A stretch of DNA of 58,785 bases. Source: Natrialba hulunbeirensis JCM 10989. GTDB lineage: Archaea > Halobacteriota > Halobacteria > Halobacteriales > Natrialbaceae. Made by a program: the position numbers and the translations under genes. Below the pieces are notes generated by a model, which did not search any database, was not told the DNA's origin, and was given only the letters and a program-made list of their open reading frames with translations. Below are positions 36,900 through 44,381 of this stretch, one piece after another; positions within the stretch are counted from its first letter, which is position 1; each line of letters opens with the position of its first letter. The stretch is taken from assembly GCF_000337575.1 (NCBI RefSeq), contig NZ_AOIM01000021.1, forward strand, positions 2,425-61,209. The letters are read 5' to 3'.

Positions 36900-37175
36900 A
36901 ATGTCCTGCATCGCCTGGTACCGGAAGATTCGCTCCTTCGGAAACAGGAAATCGAAGAGGACTTTCGACGCTTGTATGTTCTGCAATTATTTGCATATCA
37001 TGGAAAGACTTCGGGGGTCACAGACGTCACGCCGGAATTGTGTGCGACGATTGCCAACCGAATGCAGGACAACGGCATCGACGTCCCCCCGAGGAGACAA
37101 AGCCAAAAAATTACAGCTTCCGCCCCCAACTCCGCACGAAAATCTACAGTTGATCCACAAGAAAAGGGGTTCTAA
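36900..37175 (+). pseudogene. Gene fragment, unidentified
   Basis: 91 open codons without a start; the first half is protein-like (LLRKQEIEEDFRRLYVLQLF, then AYHGKTSGVTDVTPELCATI), the second half is basic. It begins about 50 bases after dispersed repeat copy 3. Possibly the C-terminus of a displaced gene. No family recognised. Confidence 0.35.
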
Positions 37176-37190
37176 AGTCCCGTGTTTATC

Positions 37191-38282
37191 TCATATGAGT
37201 TTTAGTCGATCATCATCCGGTTCATATGCTTGTCCCCCCATTAACAAATCCATTATCACGTCATCTATTTCATCACGTGTTAATTCCTTATCGAACATTT
37301 CTGCAGATTTATATATTGCGGTCCTCGGAACGCCAGATTGATACTGGCTTTCAAGCATATCTGTAAGAGAATAGATGTAGTCTTTATCATCCTCATACTC
37401 TCTAGGAGGTTCTAATGCATCAATCTCTTCAATTTCTCGCTTTGTTATGTATTCATATATTTCAGTAATTGTTGACGCAACGATCATTAGCGTTTGTCGC
37501 GCTTCATGAAGATCGGGAGATTCATCTGGGTGATTTACTTCATTCCGTTTCTCTTTTAAATAATAGAGGTTAGTCAGTACGGGTGGCAAATCGCTGAGTT
37601 GGGTTAATACAGTATCATTCTTTTTCTCGTCTTCTGCAAACTCTTGCATTAACATATCTAAGATTTGTCCCCACGCTGCCTGTTCTAATGATTCATTTTC
37701 ATACTCATACCATTCTCTAAGACAATGTTCTACTGCTCGTAGGGAAAGTATAACAGAAGAAGTGGAACAACCAACGACCAAAGTCTTCGCTGCTTCCTCA
37801 ATGTCTGCTTTAGGTCTCTCATCAAGCCAATTCCAGACTCCTGAAGAAAATATTCGCTCTGGTTCCTCAATTAGAACCTGTTGGTTCAATAATCCGGGAT
37901 CAGCGGTAGGTATCATCTGCTGACGCTTTATATCTGCTAAAACCATATTCCACCATGTACCAGACTTTCTTTCAAGTTCCGTTGCATCATCTTCATCGAG
38001 ACTATCCACAGGTTCATATTTTGACTCGACTTTCGTTCTAAAATCAGATATCTGTGCGATTACTGCACTATCAACATCGCTTGTTCGTAGAGCCTGTATT
38101 ACCTCTGCTAATGCTCCAAGAATTCGATTACTTTCTGAATCCCCTATTTCATAATCATGCTGGGCGGCTCTCCTAAGATACTCCAATCTGCTACCTAAGA
38201 CAAAAGAATCTGCTAACGTCAAATACTCCGAGTCAGAAGTACTGGTGAATTCTACGCCTCCGTACTCAGAATTCTGGGACAT
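37191..38282 (-). CDS. HEPN-like domain protein in an AT-rich island
   Basis: 363 residues. About residues 165-285 look like a HEPN/DUF4145-type helical domain: SVILSLRAVEHCLREWYEYE, then YYLKEKRNEVNH and a helix TLMIVASTITEIYEYIT. R246-N-E-V-N-H251 matches the R-x4-6-H motif of HEPN ribonucleases. The N-terminal part is helical and unidentified. The C-terminal 60 residues (YQSGVPRTAIYKSAEMFDKE) may be a winged helix. Codon use is far more AT-rich than the genome around it, indicating foreign origin. Divergent from a membrane protein gene. Defence or toxin function is inferred. Confidence 0.72.
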   Translation of the reverse strand: MSQNSEYGGVEFTSTSDSEYLTLADSFVLGSRLEYLRRAAQHDYEIGDSESNRILGALAEVIQALRTSDVDSAVIAQISDFRTKVESKYEPVDSLDEDDATELERKSGTWWNMVLADIKRQQMIPTADPGLLNQQVLIEEPERIFSSGVWNWLDERPKADIEEAAKTLVVGCSTSSVILSLRAVEHCLREWYEYENESLEQAAWGQILDMLMQEFAEDEKKNDTVLTQLSDLPPVLTNLYYLKEKRNEVNHPDESPDLHEARQTLMIVASTITEIYEYITKREIEEIDALEPPREYEDDKDYIYSLTDMLESQYQSGVPRTAIYKSAEMFDKELTRDEIDDVIMDLLMGGQAYEPDDDRLKLI

Positions 38283-38480
38283 TCTTCAATTGGATTCATT
38301 AGTTGGCACACAGAAAATGATTTCCACTCCTATTTCGATAGACAGGTATGAGTAACATTAGATAATTGCTATTATGTGGCACTGCTCCGAATTTGATGGA
38401 GAAATCGTCTAACAGCAGTGGAAGGATCAAACACCTTTCAGAGTTCCATCCAAAACAGATAACTGTTTAAATACTTATCT

Positions 38481-39182
38481 ATGAGTATGAAGCAATCAAA
38501 ACCGTTCATTTCCATCGTTTTCTTCTTGGTAGTTATTCTAGCATCTATACCACTTCTACTCATATTATTACCGATGATCTTTTTGCTATGGATTACGGGT
38601 CAGGTGAGTAAGATTGGGAGGTTCAATGTTGGGCGATATTTTGGGGGTAAGTTGGATAAAATTCAGTTTAAGGAACTGAGAGACGATCTTGTAGAGATGG
38701 CTTCAAATGATGCGGTAAAGTGGGATGTGGTGGGGGTAGATCAAGAACTCAAGGAAATAAAATCAGAGGGAAAACAGCGACATGAATACGGAGAGTTGCT
38801 TTTCACCTCTATAGTTGGTATTTTAGCCATATTTTCTGGTTCAATGAACATCCCAATATTAGGTGGCTCCTTTCATGGCTGGGGAATCGAATCGCTCTTG
38901 CTGCTGCTACCAATCTTCGTTTTAATCAGAGTCGCTTTGTTGGACCGAGTAGCCTATACAGGGGCTGATGAAGTGAAAACAGGAGATTTGGAAGTCGCTG
39001 TGAAATGGCAGGAGATGGTTTGCTATATACCGTTTTCAATACCATTCCTTCTCGCGATGGGTCTAATTAGAGGAGTTTTCGGCGATAGTAGATACGAAGT
39101 TGCTATGGATATAGTATCAGAGTCCGAATCTTGGAGAGATAACGTTGAGCTATTAAAAACAGAATTCTCTAAAAGAGTTTAG
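38481..39182 (+). CDS. Membrane protein of the AT-rich island
   Basis: 233 residues from the ATG at 38481 (ATG also at 38487). Hydrophobic segments at about 8-38 (ISIVFFLVVILASIPLLLIL and beyond), 107-125, 135-153 and 184-200 suggest four membrane spans, with soluble loops between. No recognised domain. It shares the AT-rich composition of the divergent HEPN-like gene and is separated from it by a 198-base intergenic region, so the two probably arrived together. A membrane effector or partner role is possible but unproven. Confidence 0.7.
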   Translation: MSMKQSKPFISIVFFLVVILASIPLLLILLPMIFLLWITGQVSKIGRFNVGRYFGGKLDKIQFKELRDDLVEMASNDAVKWDVVGVDQELKEIKSEGKQRHEYGELLFTSIVGILAIFSGSMNIPILGGSFHGWGIESLLLLLPIFVLIRVALLDRVAYTGADEVKTGDLEVAVKWQEMVCYIPFSIPFLLAMGLIRGVFGDSRYEVAMDIVSESESWRDNVELLKTEFSKRV

Positions 39183-39487
39183 AGAACATCACCGCTTGGG
39201 ACTGCACGTCGACAAAATCAGTTTCCCGAATATGCACACGAACACCGATCTGTCGTGTGTATATTTAGAACAATGTTGTATACTCATTGAGAGTGCCGAT
39301 TTTAGTCAACTCTCCTTCTAATATGGGTTGTTTTACGACTGGTATCTTTGATATGAACGCTCCGTGTTCACGAGCGACTATTTTGTCTTTGAGAGCCGAC
39401 ACAGCAGATTCGGTTGATCACACCAATTATGGCAGGAACGAGAACGCAAATTCACCGCAAATCGCGTTGCATAAGCTACTTCTGCGA
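39183..39487. other. Intergenic region after the AT-rich island
   Basis: AT-rich on the left, returning to normal composition toward 39450. No gene, RNA or repeat recognised. Confidence 0.35.
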
Positions 39488-39757
39488 TCAGTGACCGTTC
39501 GCCGACTCGTCTAACTCACTGGCGTCAAGTTCTCCCTCAAGATACTGCTCACCGAGATCTGTGATTGCATAATAGCCGTCGTCAACCTGCTTTGCTAAGC
39601 CATAGTCGGTAAGCACTGACAACCGCCGACTGACGCCAGTTCGGTGTCGATCAATGTTTCTCGCGATGGTTGACGGACCTAACTCCAACCCGGTATTGAG
39701 GACCTCTAGAATCCGTTCGTCTGTCGGATTCTGCATCCAATCGCCGGGTTTTCTCAT
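39488..39757 (-). CDS. Winged-helix regulator (PhiH1-repressor-like)
   Basis: 89 residues. The whole protein is one winged helix: NPTDERILEVLNTGLELGPS, TIARNIDRHRTGVSRRLSVL, and wing DYGLAKQVDDGYYAITDLGE. Small proteins of this kind in haloarchaea resemble the repressor of phage PhiH1 and are frequent in prophage or plasmid-derived regions. Target unknown; its own upstream region or the TnpB-like locus are candidates. Confidence 0.8.
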   Translation of the reverse strand: MRKPGDWMQNPTDERILEVLNTGLELGPSTIARNIDRHRTGVSRRLSVLTDYGLAKQVDDGYYAITDLGEQYLEGELDASELDESANGH

Positions 39758-39884
39758 TACCCAATCCTTTCTCGCTTCCTTCTTACGTGGTTCGGAATTC
39801 TCGATATGGTGTACAATATCGGAGACCTAGATCTATAATATCGTAGAAGAATTTAAGTGATGGCCCGACAACTAGTTGGCTAAC
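39758..39884. promoter_or_regulatory. Divergent intergenic region with a strong TATA box
   Basis: TTTAAGTG at 39852-39859 is a typical haloarchaeal TATA element; a transcript to the right would start near 39885, about 205 bases before the TnpB-like start codon. The winged-helix gene is transcribed to the left from the same region. Confidence 0.5.
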
Positions 39885-40089
39885 GGGAGTTTCAAGCGAG
39901 ACTACTACTCTGCTGGTCTCGTCCTAAAATGCGGTTCGGTGGTAGTGACACCGGCCCGCAGCGGCTCCCGTAATCACGGTACGGAAGCCATGTCCGACAA
40001 GCATCCACGGGACCTTGAAGGTCCCGACCGACGAGACGCATCACTCGAGTACCCATCCCATTCCACCCCCTCGTTCGCGGGTGATCACC
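39885..40089 (+). ncRNA. Structured leader upstream of the TnpB-like gene (candidate RNA)
   Basis: After the TATA box at 39852 come a hairpin CGAGAC (39897-39902) with GTCTCG (39916-39921), and a perfect palindrome GGGACCTTGAAGGTCCC (40009-40025). The stretch has no convincing gene. It could be a structured 5' leader or a separate small RNA associated with the RuvC-like protein. Known TnpB guide RNAs lie at the 3' end of the gene, so this would be a different arrangement. Confidence 0.3.
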
Positions 40090-40815
40090 ATGCCTAGGGT
40101 CGCCCCCGAGTTGACTGCCGCCGACCGCACCGCGACCGCGATCGGCGTCGACCTCGGCGAGTACAACCTCTACACCGCCTGCCCGGCCACGATGCCGGAC
40201 TGGAAGGGAGCCTACGCAATCTGCGGCGACGACCTTTGCACCCAATTAGACGAGCTCCGCGCACAGGTCGCCCACCTGCTCGGTAGCGAGTACGACCGCG
40301 AGACGATCACCGCGTACGTCGAGCAACGCCGCACCGCCCTTCTCAACCGCCTCGACGACGCCGCGCGAACCATCTGCGACTACGCGAGCGCGTACGACCG
40401 GCCCGTGCTGGTCACCGAGAACAGCCACTTCGAGCCCGACCTCTGGGCGTGGCTGACCGATCCCAACGCCCACCGTGGCACGGCGTGGCTCCTCCCGGCG
40501 GCGCAGCTCCGACTCCGAGCCGTCGCCGCCGCGTACGCCATCGAGGTGACGACTGTGCCGGTGTCCTACTCCTCCCAGGAGTGTCACGCCTGCGGCGTCA
40601 TCGGTGAGCGCGCCCAGAGCCCCTCGTTTCGCTGCACGAACCCCGACTGTGCCGTCGGCGTTGTCTCCGCGGATCACAACGCCGCGAAGGTCCTCGCACA
40701 GCGGTACTACCCCGGCCAGCGCTGTGCCTACCGCCCGTCGAACTCGGCCACGACAGGCACGGACACCGCTCCAGCGCCCGTCGCTGACGGCGGCTCGCCG
40801 CAGAAGAACGCCTGA
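40090..40815 (+). CDS. TnpB-like RuvC/zinc-ribbon protein lacking the N-terminal half
   Basis: 241 residues from the ATG at 40090. RuvC I Asp21 (GVDLGEYNLY), RuvC II Glu110 (LVTENSHFEPD), a zinc ribbon with C165-x2-C168 and C182-x4-C187, then RuvC III Asp195 (SADHNAAKVL). TnpB proteins of IS200/IS605 elements are about 400 residues and have an N-terminal recognition half that is missing here. No TnpA gene and no element ends are seen. All three acidic residues are kept, so nuclease activity is possible. It is followed by a coiled-coil protein gene, suggesting a domesticated two-gene locus. Confidence 0.75.
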   Translation: MPRVAPELTAADRTATAIGVDLGEYNLYTACPATMPDWKGAYAICGDDLCTQLDELRAQVAHLLGSEYDRETITAYVEQRRTALLNRLDDAARTICDYASAYDRPVLVTENSHFEPDLWAWLTDPNAHRGTAWLLPAAQLRLRAVAAAYAIEVTTVPVSYSSQECHACGVIGERAQSPSFRCTNPDCAVGVVSADHNAAKVLAQRYYPGQRCAYRPSNSATTGTDTAPAPVADGGSPQKNA

Positions 40816-40962
40816 CCCGCCGAGTGCCGATGACCGAACTGGGTCACCGCCACCGACTCACGCCGCACGCACGCGTCGATCGTCTCCGCTCCGGTGGCCC
40901 GCACAGTCGGCACGTCCGCTGTCTCGCCTTCCAACTGCCCACTGACACACCCCACGATCACC

Positions 40963-41835
40963 ATGAGCACCCACTCCGAGCACACCACTCCCAACACCAC
41001 CCCAGACGAATCGACTTCCCACTCACTCGCCGCCGCACTCGAGTCCCTCCGAAATCGACTCGAGACACTCGAGTCCACCCTCGACCAGAAAACCGACCGG
41101 ATCGAGCACCTCGAGCGGGAACTCGACCGTGTCCGGACGGAAAACGAACGCCTCGAGAGCCGTGTCACCGAACTCGAGGAGACACGAACTCCCATCGAGC
41201 CGATCGAGGCCCGACTGGACGCCCACGAAAAGAAACTCGCGGCGAACAAAGCGCGCGTCAGCGAACTCCAGACGCGCGAACTCGAGAAGGGTGCCCACCT
41301 GCTCGAGATCCACGTCGATCTCAGTGCGATCGACGTCACCGACGGTCGTCTCGAGCGGATCACCAAGGACGATGGCAAGCAGTACGTCCGCCTGCCCGAG
41401 AGCGATGACCCACTCGAGCGCGGTGGCGACGTCGCCGTCGCCCACGGCGATCTGCTCCCGGTGCAGCAACTCGCGAGGATGGACGACGAGATGCGGCGTG
41501 CAACCACGTCTGCCCTCCCCGTCCGGCTCGCAGCGAACCTCTGGAAGGCTCGCACCGATCCGAGCGTCGGCGACAACCCGTGGAAACAGGGGTGCAAGAA
41601 CGTCCGCGAGTACGTCACGGCGAGCGATATGAAACACTGGATTCGCAGGCAGGAGTCGGGGATCAGCGACACGTACGCGAAGAAACTCGTCTCGCGAACG
41701 ATCGACGCGCTGCTCGATCTCTCGCGGAACCGGCTGGCGATCAGGCGCACCAGTCAGCGAAAGAACGGACTCGAGTACACCGAACGTCGCGTCCTGCTGC
41801 CGGCGGATGCGGCGATTCCAGGTGAGCGGCTGTGA
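40963..41835 (+). CDS. Coiled-coil protein, partner of the TnpB-like protein (unknown function)
   Basis: 290 residues from the ATG at 40963. A long coiled coil covers about residues 25-115 (LESLRNRLETLESTLDQKTD and heptad-like continuation). The C-terminal part (about 120-285) is globular, with KQGCKNVREYVTASDMKHWI and SDTYAKKLVSRTIDALLDLS, possibly a DNA-binding helical region. No family name recognised. It starts 147 bases after the TnpB-like gene on the same strand, and both have strong coding composition, so a shared function is plausible. Confidence 0.65.
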   Translation: MSTHSEHTTPNTTPDESTSHSLAAALESLRNRLETLESTLDQKTDRIEHLERELDRVRTENERLESRVTELEETRTPIEPIEARLDAHEKKLAANKARVSELQTRELEKGAHLLEIHVDLSAIDVTDGRLERITKDDGKQYVRLPESDDPLERGGDVAVAHGDLLPVQQLARMDDEMRRATTSALPVRLAANLWKARTDPSVGDNPWKQGCKNVREYVTASDMKHWIRRQESGISDTYAKKLVSRTIDALLDLSRNRLAIRRTSQRKNGLEYTERRVLLPADAAIPGERL

Positions 41836-41962
41836 TGATCGAGACGCCGCGATACCGCGTAGCTGTGATGGTCGGGACGCTGCGATGACACGTGGCCGCA
41901 ACGACCGAGAGAGCCCAATAACACGTGACTGTGACAACCGGAACGGCCCGGTGACACGTGGC
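41831..41962. repeat. Four tandem 33-base repeats
   Basis: Four consecutive imperfect units of exactly 33 bases (41831-41863, 41864-41896, 41897-41929, 41930-41962). The end of each unit is best conserved (ACACGTGGC or close variants in units 2-4). The first unit overlaps the stop codon of the coiled-coil gene. The reverse strand translates to an 11-residue repeat (ATCHRAVPVVT-like), a consequence of the 33-base period. No spacers, so not CRISPR. Confidence 0.8.
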
Positions 41963-42371
41963 GTCGACGGCTGAAACTGTCGACGGCAGTCGCACACTGC
42001 CCTGCGAGGGGATCCGACACTCCAGGCGGTACAGGAATCCAGCGCGATGTGGCTGTAAGCACGTCCGGCTACTCGTGAGTCTGTCGCTCGATCGGTCGTC
42101 GACGGTCCGCATCGATCGACGGCTCGGGAGCGGTCACTGAAGACGTCAGGTGTCTCCGGGAACGTCCAGCCAGAGGGACAGCTAGCAGTGAGTGTCCGCT
42201 GGGGTTTCTTCATTGCCGCTCGGGTACCTCACGCAGCGCTGCGTCAGTGCCCCGCTAGATGCCAGGAATACGCCAGGGCCACGGCTTCGTCCATCCCGTC
42301 CGTGCGCCGATAGCGAGTGTTCGAACCGGTCCAGTCCAGTACGTGCTGGCTGCGTCCGTTGACCCCGATCC
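41963..42371. other. Intergenic region before the multicopper oxidase 3' end
   Basis: Begins with a GTCGAC...GTCGAC inverted repeat (about 41963-41985). No supported gene; long reverse-strand frames continue from the antisense of the coiled-coil gene and are not credible. Confidence 0.35.
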
Positions 42372-44381
42372 CTAGTCGGACTTGGACGCAACCCGTGTCT
42401 CAGTTTCACCCTGCGTTTCGGACGCGGGGCCTTCCCCTGACTCTGATGCCGGCCGAACCGCGAACGGACGCATCATATCGTAGTCCTCGTGCTCGACCAT
42501 GTGGCAGTGCCACATGTACGTCCCCGTCTGGTCGTTGAACACCCCTTCGTACTCCCCGAAGTGCACGAGGATGTGGACCACCTCTGCCGGATGGACGGTT
42601 ATCACGTCGTTCCATCCCTGCTCGTACGCCTTGGGGGACTCGAGTGCATCGAGATCGATCTCGTCCTCGGTCGACTGGTACTCCCCGAGTGGCTGCCGGC
42701 CGAGCAACTGGAAGTGGACGAGGTGGAGGTGCATCGGGTGGGACATATCCGTGAGATTGGCGAAGCTCCAGAGTTCGGTGTCACCGACCGTCGGTTCCTC
42801 GGTCACCGGATCGTCGACCGCGAGCCCGGACTGTTCGTCCTCGGTGCCGAGGAGGTGGACCATCCGCCCGTGCTCGTCCTTGTCCGCCGTGAGGGTGAGA
42901 TACCGTTTCGTGTCGACGTCCTCGAGTGAGATTTCGGGGACGCGAGCCAGTTCGTTCGGCACGGCCTCTATTGCCCCGTCTGTTTCGGTCTCGATCGCCT
43001 CACTCGCCCCGTTCGCGGTGTCTTCAGCGTCCGTAGTGCCCGAACCACCCGAACCGCCCGAACCGTCTGCAGCGTCCGTAGCGTCCGAAACGTCTGCAGT
43101 GCCCACAGCGCCCGAACCGTCCGCAACGTCGACGAGCAGAATCTCGTGGAGCGGGACGATGTCGTCGTCGGTCGAACTCAGATTCCCTCGGTACAGCGCG
43201 GGCGCGTCGTTGTGAAGCAGCAGCGTCTCGCCCGCGTACTCGGAGAAGTCGACGACGACGTCGGCGCGCTGTCCGGACCCAATCTCGAGTCGGTCGTCGA
43301 CGGGAACCGGTTCTGCGAGCAGTCCGCCGTCGTTTCCGATCTGGACGACCGACGGCCCCTCGCTGCCGGTCTCGCCCGTCGATTCGTCGTACTCGAGTAG
43401 CGTGAGGTTGTAGTACCGACTGTTCGATCCGTTCAGGAGCCGGAACCGGTAGGATGTGGGCTCGACGGAGAGGCGCGGCCAGGCCTTGCCGTTGACGACG
43501 GGAGTGTCGCCGTAGAACTCCGGCACGATGCTCGGCTCCGGATGGGAATCCCCGTGCCCGCTCTGTTCGTCCGCGATAGCCGCCGGATAGAATAGGGAGC
43601 CGTCGTCGGTGACGCTCCGGTCCTGGAGGACGAGCGGAACCTCGTATTCGTCCCGGGGTAACTCGAGTGCGTCTTCCTCGTCGCTTCGGAGGAGGTAGAA
43701 GCCGGCGAGGCCGGCGTAGACGTTGAGCCGGGTGATGCCGAGTGCGTGGTCGTGGTACCAGAGCGTTGCGGCTGGCTGGTCGTTGACGTAGTGGTAGTCC
43801 TTCTGCTCGAATTCGGGGCCGGTCGCCGCGAAGTCGCGCGTGTACCACGCCTGCGATTTGCCGTCGCTTTCTGACTCGATGTTCCCGCCGTGGAGGTGGG
43901 TTACGGTGCGGACGCCGGGCGTTTCGTACGGGATGATATCGCTGTGGATCGTCGTGTCGACGGTGAGCAGGTGCTCGTCGGGGAGCTTGTTCTGCCAGCG
44001 GACGTAGATCGGCTCGCCCTGTCGGGCTTCGATCGTCGGCCCGGGGAACTGGCCGTCGTAGCCCCAGACCGTCGTTGGAGGGAGGTCGCGGTGAAGCTGT
44101 TGCTCGATTTCCGTCATCTCGATCTCGTAGTAGGGCTGGCCGTCTTTCTCGCCGGTTGGGTCGACGACGCCCGGCCGTGGGACCTCGTCCACCCAGCGCT
44201 CGAGCGCAGGCGAGGAGTGTGTTGTCACCGTGGCTGCCGGCGGTACCTCTTGCTCCAGTGTCGGTGTCTCGTCCGACGTACACCCTGCGAGCGCCGAGAC
44301 GCCCGCGACGCCGGTAGCGAGGACGACCTCGCGCCGTGAGAGCCTGCCGAGTGGCAGGTCTGCCTGGTCACTCATAGACAA
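42372..44381 (-). CDS. Multicopper oxidase (laccase / CotA type), Tat lipoprotein
   Basis: 669 residues. A Tat signal with lipobox (SRREVVLATGVAGVSALAGC) directs export and lipid anchoring. Copper ligand motifs are all present: THLHGGNIES, WYHDHALGITRLNVYAG, HPMHLHLVHFQ and HCHMVEHEDYDMM. The enzyme should oxidise phenolics, bilirubin-like compounds or metals while reducing oxygen to water, outside the cell. A Gly/Ser/Thr/Asp-rich segment (about residues 420-475) interrupts the domain 2-3 linker. ATG codons at 44381 and 44375 are both possible starts. Confidence 0.94.
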   Translation of the reverse strand: MSMSDQADLPLGRLSRREVVLATGVAGVSALAGCTSDETPTLEQEVPPAATVTTHSSPALERWVDEVPRPGVVDPTGEKDGQPYYEIEMTEIEQQLHRDLPPTTVWGYDGQFPGPTIEARQGEPIYVRWQNKLPDEHLLTVDTTIHSDIIPYETPGVRTVTHLHGGNIESESDGKSQAWYTRDFAATGPEFEQKDYHYVNDQPAATLWYHDHALGITRLNVYAGLAGFYLLRSDEEDALELPRDEYEVPLVLQDRSVTDDGSLFYPAAIADEQSGHGDSHPEPSIVPEFYGDTPVVNGKAWPRLSVEPTSYRFRLLNGSNSRYYNLTLLEYDESTGETGSEGPSVVQIGNDGGLLAEPVPVDDRLEIGSGQRADVVVDFSEYAGETLLLHNDAPALYRGNLSSTDDDIVPLHEILLVDVADGSGAVGTADVSDATDAADGSGGSGGSGTTDAEDTANGASEAIETETDGAIEAVPNELARVPEISLEDVDTKRYLTLTADKDEHGRMVHLLGTEDEQSGLAVDDPVTEEPTVGDTELWSFANLTDMSHPMHLHLVHFQLLGRQPLGEYQSTEDEIDLDALESPKAYEQGWNDVITVHPAEVVHILVHFGEYEGVFNDQTGTYMWHCHMVEHEDYDMMRPFAVRPASESGEGPASETQGETETRVASKSD

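Follow-up and report, generated by a model that had tools for sequence, protein, structure and literature searches.

In the betapleolipovirus SNJ2, orf1 to orf3 form one operon with two alternative start sites (PMC8371274), and orf4 to orf10 constitute the lysogeny/lysis regulatory region (PMC13107129). TnpB derivatives have been described in phages: the TldR proteins are TnpB-derived, RNA-guided transcription factors that are nuclease-dead (PMC13418256). Here we analyzed 58,785 nucleotides of Natrialba hulunbeirensis JCM 10989 (contig NZ_AOIM01000021.1; this whole stretch is the window) and describe a locus in which a protein reduced to the RuvC and zinc-ribbon half of TnpB follows an SNJ2-like control region, composed of a divergent gene homologous to SNJ2 gp04 and a structured leader RNA. 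We interpret it as a TnpB-derived nuclease that was probably taken into an SNJ2-type lysogeny-control operon and is expressed once the repressor/RNA switch opens. Sequence comparison documents which parts make up the locus and that they are conserved, where the control region came from, that the catalytic residues are intact and that selection is purifying.

The central gene is:

40090-40815, forward strand: protein of 241 amino acids (aa) consisting only of RuvC and zinc-ribbon (TNB) parts, with D21/E110/D195 and CxxC...CxNPxC intact; assigned by fold, clade and dN/dS

This open reading frame (ORF) matches the Pfam family Cas12f1-like_TNB (PF07282) at 3e-9, with 37.3 bits against a cut-off of 26.3. 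An alignment revealed that the RuvC D/E/D triad (D21, E110 and D195) and the zinc ligands (C165/C168/C182/C187) are unchanged across 19 homologues; the triad is invariant, and the loss of catalytic residues that marks TldR repressors is not seen. In the AlphaFold2 (AF2) model, residues 11-211 superpose solely on the C-terminal RuvC and zinc half of Cas12f and TnpB (AsCas12f 8j1j_B residues 215-417, Z 12.2; ISFba1 TnpB 8iaz residues 187-384, Z 9.4), and the fold alignment with ISFba1 TnpB shows that the N-terminal REC/WED half, which binds guide and target, is missing. The NCBIfam guided_TnpB score is 29 bits (cut-off 100). A repeat search found no repeats framing an element at the locus, and neither mobile-element ends nor TnpA were seen there. 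No spaced repeat array (CRISPR) was found within 39000-42500, and a folding scan of 40640-41000, on the 3' side of the gene where the omega RNA or re-RNA of a TnpB would sit, gave no signal above shuffles. The first-pass annotation of this DNA had described a 241-residue protein with three RuvC acids and a zinc ribbon, lacking the N-terminal half of TnpB and without TnpA or element ends, and these results bear that description out. We infer that the protein is an active DNA nuclease or nickase, dependent on metal ions and working without a TnpB-type guide RNA.

RuvC homologues were found in 25 of 125 Natrialbaceae genomes, often as two paralogues per genome. The second copy of N. hulunbeirensis, on another contig and 68% identical, is also accompanied by divergent winged-helix and coiled-coil genes. 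When 342 sampled Halobacteriales genomes were searched with a profile, full-length members of the family scored at least 370 bits and one partial copy 289, followed by a group of mostly full-length TnpBs at 123 bits or less; family members were confined to Natrialbaceae. They form a distinct clade in the tree (support 100/99) and are under purifying selection (dN/dS 0.12-0.34). The locus is syntenic in related Natrialba, and no full-length TnpB was found at the site of the gene in relatives. The RuvC orthologue on pNMAG01 of Natrialba magadii is 95% identical. The N. hulunbeirensis genome contains 20 further TNB-family matches, most of them in TnpB-sized open frames. A few partial copies (genomes G065 and G066) and one internal stop (G047) would suit a decaying TnpB remnant that hitchhikes with a selected neighbor, but this is scarcely credible given the dN/dS values, the same boundaries in 25 genomes and a clade apart from the TnpBs. 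Because the clade is bounded, full-length TnpB is missing from the same site, the key residues are invariant and selection is purifying, the evidence supports a conserved, apparently domesticated TnpB derivative with an intact active site and not a random truncation. The first-pass annotation had said that its proposal would fall if the gene were a random truncation of this strain only, with full-length homologues at the same site elsewhere; what we found is homologues in 25 of 125 genomes and no full-length TnpB at the same site. The clade is a previously undescribed type of TnpB derivative, itself a known kind of protein. Viral contigs contained no RuvC homologue, phages matched solely through ISH12-type TnpB, and the PADLOC defense library returned nothing but Cas12 zinc-ribbon and coiled-coil noise.

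Proteins with only the RuvC and zinc-ribbon parts also make up a second, separate family (L180-L186, ~220 aa), which keeps the catalytic acids and lacks the N-terminal half. It occurs in 11 of the 342 Halobacteriales genomes, in three families; at several of its loci the gene immediately upstream is small (~105 aa, MSLPEPTDVIAP...). This second family clusters with the N. hulunbeirensis family against three distinct full-length TnpBs, the only outgroup of the tree, so this grouping is provisional. Its loci are:

G048:C1:975853
G336:C3:263137
G045:C1:2864365
G081:C1:1779037
G044:C80:32497
G044:C55:30372
G260:C2:267854

On a plasmid of Natrinema sp. DC36 (L093, 5986-8193), a 735-aa fusion protein begins with a RuvC/zinc-ribbon homologue and contains more zinc-finger-like segments. 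The gene upstream of it has ribbon-helix-helix-like and helix-turn-helix-like segments, and neither the leader nor a gp04 homologue was detected nearby.

The control region of the RuvC gene begins with a divergent gene:

39488-39757, reverse strand: divergent winged-helix repressor-like gene, 89 aa, from gp04 homology and PHROG 2440

Its product is 62% identical over 84 aa to SNJ2 gp04, a 'transcriptional regulator', and matches PHROG 2440 (transcriptional regulator, 1e-31). A winged-helix homologue lies upstream in 30 of 31 RuvC loci, and a gp04 homologue was present in all 21 RuvC loci checked for one. The gene also stands beside the leader in each of the 30 Natrialbaceae leader loci examined (L096-L125) and, outside Natrialbaceae, in 7 of 11 loci (two query proteins). 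In SNJ2 the order is divergent gp04, leader, then orf3 (a recombination accessory protein), orf2 and integrase, and the SNJ2 leader is 90% identical to a Natrinema chromosomal leader. An orf3 homologue sits between the gp04 homologue/leader and RuvC in N. asiatica and N. taiwanensis (L039, L041), an arrangement that we read as an intermediate stage. The window thus has the divergent gp04-like winged-helix gene and the leader RNA of an SNJ2-type control region; no match to integrase or orf2 was found in it, and the Orf3 N-terminal peptide alone is left of that operon. A provirus within the window was considered and rejected, gp04 being the sole SNJ2 match.

RuvC occupies the position where SNJ2 encodes recombination accessory proteins, and its guide-binding parts are missing. 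Both would also fit a non-cutting DNA-binding regulator or structural accessory, with a role like that of nuclease-dead TnpB derivatives. We consider this unlikely: the catalytic acids and zinc ligands are all invariant, whereas TldR is described as nuclease-dead.

A segment of ~2 kb (37170-39195) with two genes is absent at the syntenic locus of three related Natrialba. The genes encode a 363-aa protein with a weak match to the HVO_B0008 C-terminal domain and a 233-aa membrane-like protein.

The promoter and leader comprise the following features:

39852-39857, forward strand: TATA-like box TTTAAG, from sequence, ~27 nucleotides upstream of the predicted start at ~39881
39881-39989, forward strand: structured leader RNA, from covariance model, folding z-scores, pair counts, swap and switch tests
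39883-39889 with 39965-39971, forward strand: leader helix P1
39896-39902 with 39916-39922, forward strand: leader helix P2
39930-39941 with 39949-39960, forward strand: leader helix P3
39963-39971 with 39981-39989, forward strand: alternative leader helix H2, abutting the AUG at 39990

The AT-rich TTTA element and the TAACG(C/G)GAG start after it are conserved in relatives, and transcription would start at ~39881. Folding of the N. hulunbeirensis leader clearly exceeds that of shuffled sequences (z -3.1; -2.1 to -5.2 over six leaders), in line with the earlier observation of a TATA box before a hairpin-bearing leader, and between 39800 and 41000 better-than-shuffled folding was seen solely at ~39880-40030. 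When Natrialba and Natrinema loci are compared, the DNA upstream of RuvC is 75-80% identical and the RuvC proteins ~65%. A covariance model (R1) built from 11 leaders found matches in 101 of 125 Natrialbaceae and in 141 of the 342 Halobacteriales genomes, from 46 genera; it scored the N. hulunbeirensis leader at 169 bits and the SNJ2 leader at 148. No leader tried had a match in Rfam, and no description of this leader RNA was found in the open-access papers searched, most subscription papers being outside coverage. We regard it as a candidate new RNA family with a mechanism of recognizable type.

A strongly structured RNA immediately upstream of RuvC recalls an omega RNA shifted to the 5' side, in which case RuvC would be guided by the leader or another local RNA. 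This is very improbable, as many RuvC loci carry a sequence-unrelated leader, the guide-binding N-terminal half is absent, and no structured RNA is predicted at the RuvC 3' side, the usual place of TnpB guides. Because the leader sits mostly before other genes (in most genomes SNJ2-type integrase operons or coiled-coil operons without RuvC), we interpret it as a regulatory leader, and its candidacy as the guide RNA of RuvC was rejected.

Compared with the closest Natrialba relatives (L036, L037 and L087), the stretch 39488-39930, which holds the repressor gene and the leader's 5' part with P2, has diverged strongly, despite RuvC proteins that are 93-96% identical. The N. hulunbeirensis repressor is nearer to its N. 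asiatica counterpart (83%). This divergence resembles an exchange of immunity region.

The leader is predicted to adopt alternative folds. The strand CTCCCGT (39965-39971) pairs either with the 5' end, ACGGGAG (39883-39889), forming P1, or with ACGGaAG (39981-39987), forming H2, and P1 encloses the hairpins P2 and P3. In the coiled-coil operons the 5' and 3' leader strands are mostly identical (ACGGAAG), which shows the exclusivity of P1 and H2 plainly. All three strands covary across lineages (e.g. GCG/CGC/GCA, CGG/CCG/CGA and GAAGG/CCTTC/GAA). In a swap test of P1 and H2, pairing within sequences beat pairing between sequences, and 0 of 3000 swaps were as good. The P2 region forms a hairpin in 41 of 47 leaders of differing sequence (mean z -3.0). 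The leaders at RuvC loci missed by the covariance model share this layout but are unrelated in sequence. Folding tests, which omitted two diverged loci (L014 and L018) and L012, revealed that in 38 of 47 R1-type leaders P1 and H2 draw on shared middle-strand bases (shuffled maximum 11), as do the two folds of all 14 sequence-unrelated leaders (shuffled maximum 6). The leaders are therefore predicted to have conserved folds at the start codon that exclude each other, as riboswitch-like elements do.

Alternatively, the repeat strands could be DNA operators for a gp04-type or Orf3-type regulator and not an RNA switch. Three related copies stand in direct and inverted order and change together across lineages, like operators co-evolving with a repressor. 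We doubt this explanation, because every copy is located at or downstream of the predicted start site, the P2 hairpin persists in leaders of different sequence, and leaders of unrelated sequence, too, have the third strand placed precisely at the start codon.

The leader is followed by a small ORF that, like the divergent winged-helix gene, was absent from the first-pass annotation, and by a palindrome within it:

39990-40097, forward strand: overlapping first ORF of 35 codons (MSDKHPRDLEGPDRRDASLEYPSHSTPSFAGDHHA), resembling the SNJ2 Orf3 N-terminus (MYNDNSRGLESPD..DAS)
40009-40025, forward strand: 17-base palindrome GGGACCTTGAAGGTCCC, hairpin H3 (GGGACCTT-G-AAGGTCCC), inside the small ORF

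The stop codon of the small ORF overlaps the RuvC start (ATGCCTAG; overlap form ATGNNTRA), suggesting that RuvC is translated by coupling, and most RuvC homologues have a comparable overlapping upstream ORF or in-frame extension. Its first residues are MYNDNSRGLESPDTADAS, versus MSDKHPRDLEGPDRRDAS in Orf3, and the same N-terminal peptide begins the first ORF in SNJ2 and in operons with the coiled-coil gene only. The palindrome, reported earlier as perfect, was found again. In relatives the outer pairs of H3 are kept, one pair is compensated from A-U to G-C, and another is broken in 4 of 11; CGGGR/YCCCG is also kept in the coiled-coil-only operons. The hairpin (CGGGR...YCCCG) is retained while the encoded residues vary (RGLESP, RGNESP, RDLQTP, RDSKTP), which hints that this stretch has an RNA- or DNA-level role as well.

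Downstream of RuvC lies a further gene:

40963-41835, forward strand: coiled-coil (CC) protein of 290 aa, from AF2, with two long helices (17-113) and a winged-helix-like C-terminal domain (~165-280)

The AF2 model has a pLDDT of 77. Structural comparison of its C-terminal part gave mostly winged-helix domains as best matches, at a weak Z of 4-6 that excludes no family, and Foldseek returned no significant match for the protein. The gene is under purifying selection (dN/dS 0.18-0.35). The first-pass annotation had noted a conserved-looking coiled-coil protein after RuvC and suggested searching for the two-gene combination. The CC gene does lie 3' of RuvC in 24 of 31 RuvC loci, partial copies accounting for two of these, but in a Natrinema RuvC subclade no CC partner occurs within ~2.5 kb. 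The CC family is found in 87 of 125 Natrialbaceae genomes (versus 25 for RuvC), with as many as 13 copies in a genome, and many haloarchaeal plasmids also carry it. Its members mostly occur without RuvC, behind other first genes. In 14 such loci (L128-L141) the divergent winged-helix gene and the leader RNA are both there, and the first ORF, wherever resolvable, begins with an M(S/Y)(N/D)DDSRG(N/L)ESPDR-like peptide followed by a variable body. RuvC is therefore one of several alternative genes at that position. Viral contigs contained one distant CC homologue only, and phages none.

Adjacency in most RuvC loci, purifying selection on both genes and the winged-helix-like C-terminus of the CC protein would suit a dedicated two-subunit nuclease in which the CC/winged-helix protein gives DNA target recognition. 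We give this little credence, as the CC family usually stands behind other first genes and the Natrinema RuvC loci lack the partner. Because the CC family is far commoner than RuvC, we do not regard its protein as a dedicated target-recognition subunit. The earlier idea of a domesticated nuclease or regulator with a partner for recognition thus survives in its conserved RuvC-only derivative, recurrent CC neighbor and structured leader, whereas the role assigned to the partner is not supported.

The CC family is a multi-copy part of leader-controlled haloarchaeal operons whose first gene is highly variable (L128-L141, L187, L193-L194). Genome G133 carries the leader eight times, and both of the copies examined are followed by a 42-codon ORF and then a CC gene.

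We propose that these parts form a small operon whose control region derives from a provirus and in which the gp04-like repressor and the switch leader would govern RuvC and, usually after it, the CC/winged-helix gene. The gp04-type protein would bind and repress the shared promoter. Transcripts from ~39881 would carry a leader folded as a three-way junction (P1-P2-P3), whose P1 3' strand could alternatively pair with the start-codon-abutting strand (H2) in a mutually exclusive fold, and the choice between P1 and H2 may decide whether the first ORF is translated. That ORF, with 35 codons at this locus, would be what is left of the Orf3 N-terminus, and RuvC would be made by translational coupling to it. 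RuvC may then cut or nick DNA in a metal-dependent, guide-free manner. It would be deployed when the provirus-type switch opens, upon infection or induction, and would act on an element that is either resident or a competitor. The control region would best fit an action against such elements of SNJ2 type, or a part in excising them.

Several points weigh against this reading. A search against SNJ2 found no SNJ2 gene but gp04 in the window, so provirus control would be a matter of descent and not of present context. The confidence of the RuvC model is moderate (pLDDT 70), and catalysis cannot be assumed from catalytic residues by themselves. The three-way repeats could partly mirror protein-binding DNA operators. 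Finally, the covariation counts of the leader are counts of sequences and not of independent events, and shuffles leave relatedness in. Because related sequences inflate the count in either set, the fact that two leader sets of unrelated sequence agree is a stronger argument for a switch than those counts.

More tentatively, the integrative elements of haloarchaea may have in common a translational RNA switch of an uncatalogued class, which would control lysogeny/integration operons and which one lineage may use for a guide-free TnpB-derived RuvC nuclease, the guide-binding half being lost and the cutting half kept as a stable family. To our knowledge, only a few RNA switches have been described in archaea, and this leader adds a candidate, present in ~40% of sampled Halobacteriales genomes, including the isolated temperate virus SNJ2, for which published transformation and shuttle-vector tools make the timing of archaeal provirus integration and excision directly testable. 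Natural RuvC-only descendants of TnpB would test whether the cutting half works without the guide-binding parts, and they bear on how Cas12-type enzymes arose and can be engineered.

The locus resembles the SNJ2 lysogeny/integration control region (PMC13107129, PMC8371274) in gp04, the leader RNA and the Orf3 N-terminal peptide, but has RuvC and the CC gene in place of orf3-orf2-integrase and no other SNJ2 gene in the window. With TnpB of IS200/IS605 and IS607 elements (IS1341-type, e.g. ISH12) the RuvC protein shares the RuvC I/II/III acids, the C-terminal zinc ribbon and the fold of residues 11-211; it differs in lacking the REC/WED N-terminal half, TnpA and element ends, and a predicted structured RNA on the 3' side, and in forming a separate clade. 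Like TldR (PMC13418256), it would be a TnpB derivative taken up by a mobile element, but TldR is RNA-guided and nuclease-dead, whereas the protein described here keeps its catalytic residues and lacks the guide-binding half. As in translational riboswitches and other alternative-structure leaders, one strand of the leader is predicted to pair either upstream (open) or with a start-codon-proximal strand (closed); unlike them, this leader has no Rfam match, is archaeal and is borne on mobile elements.
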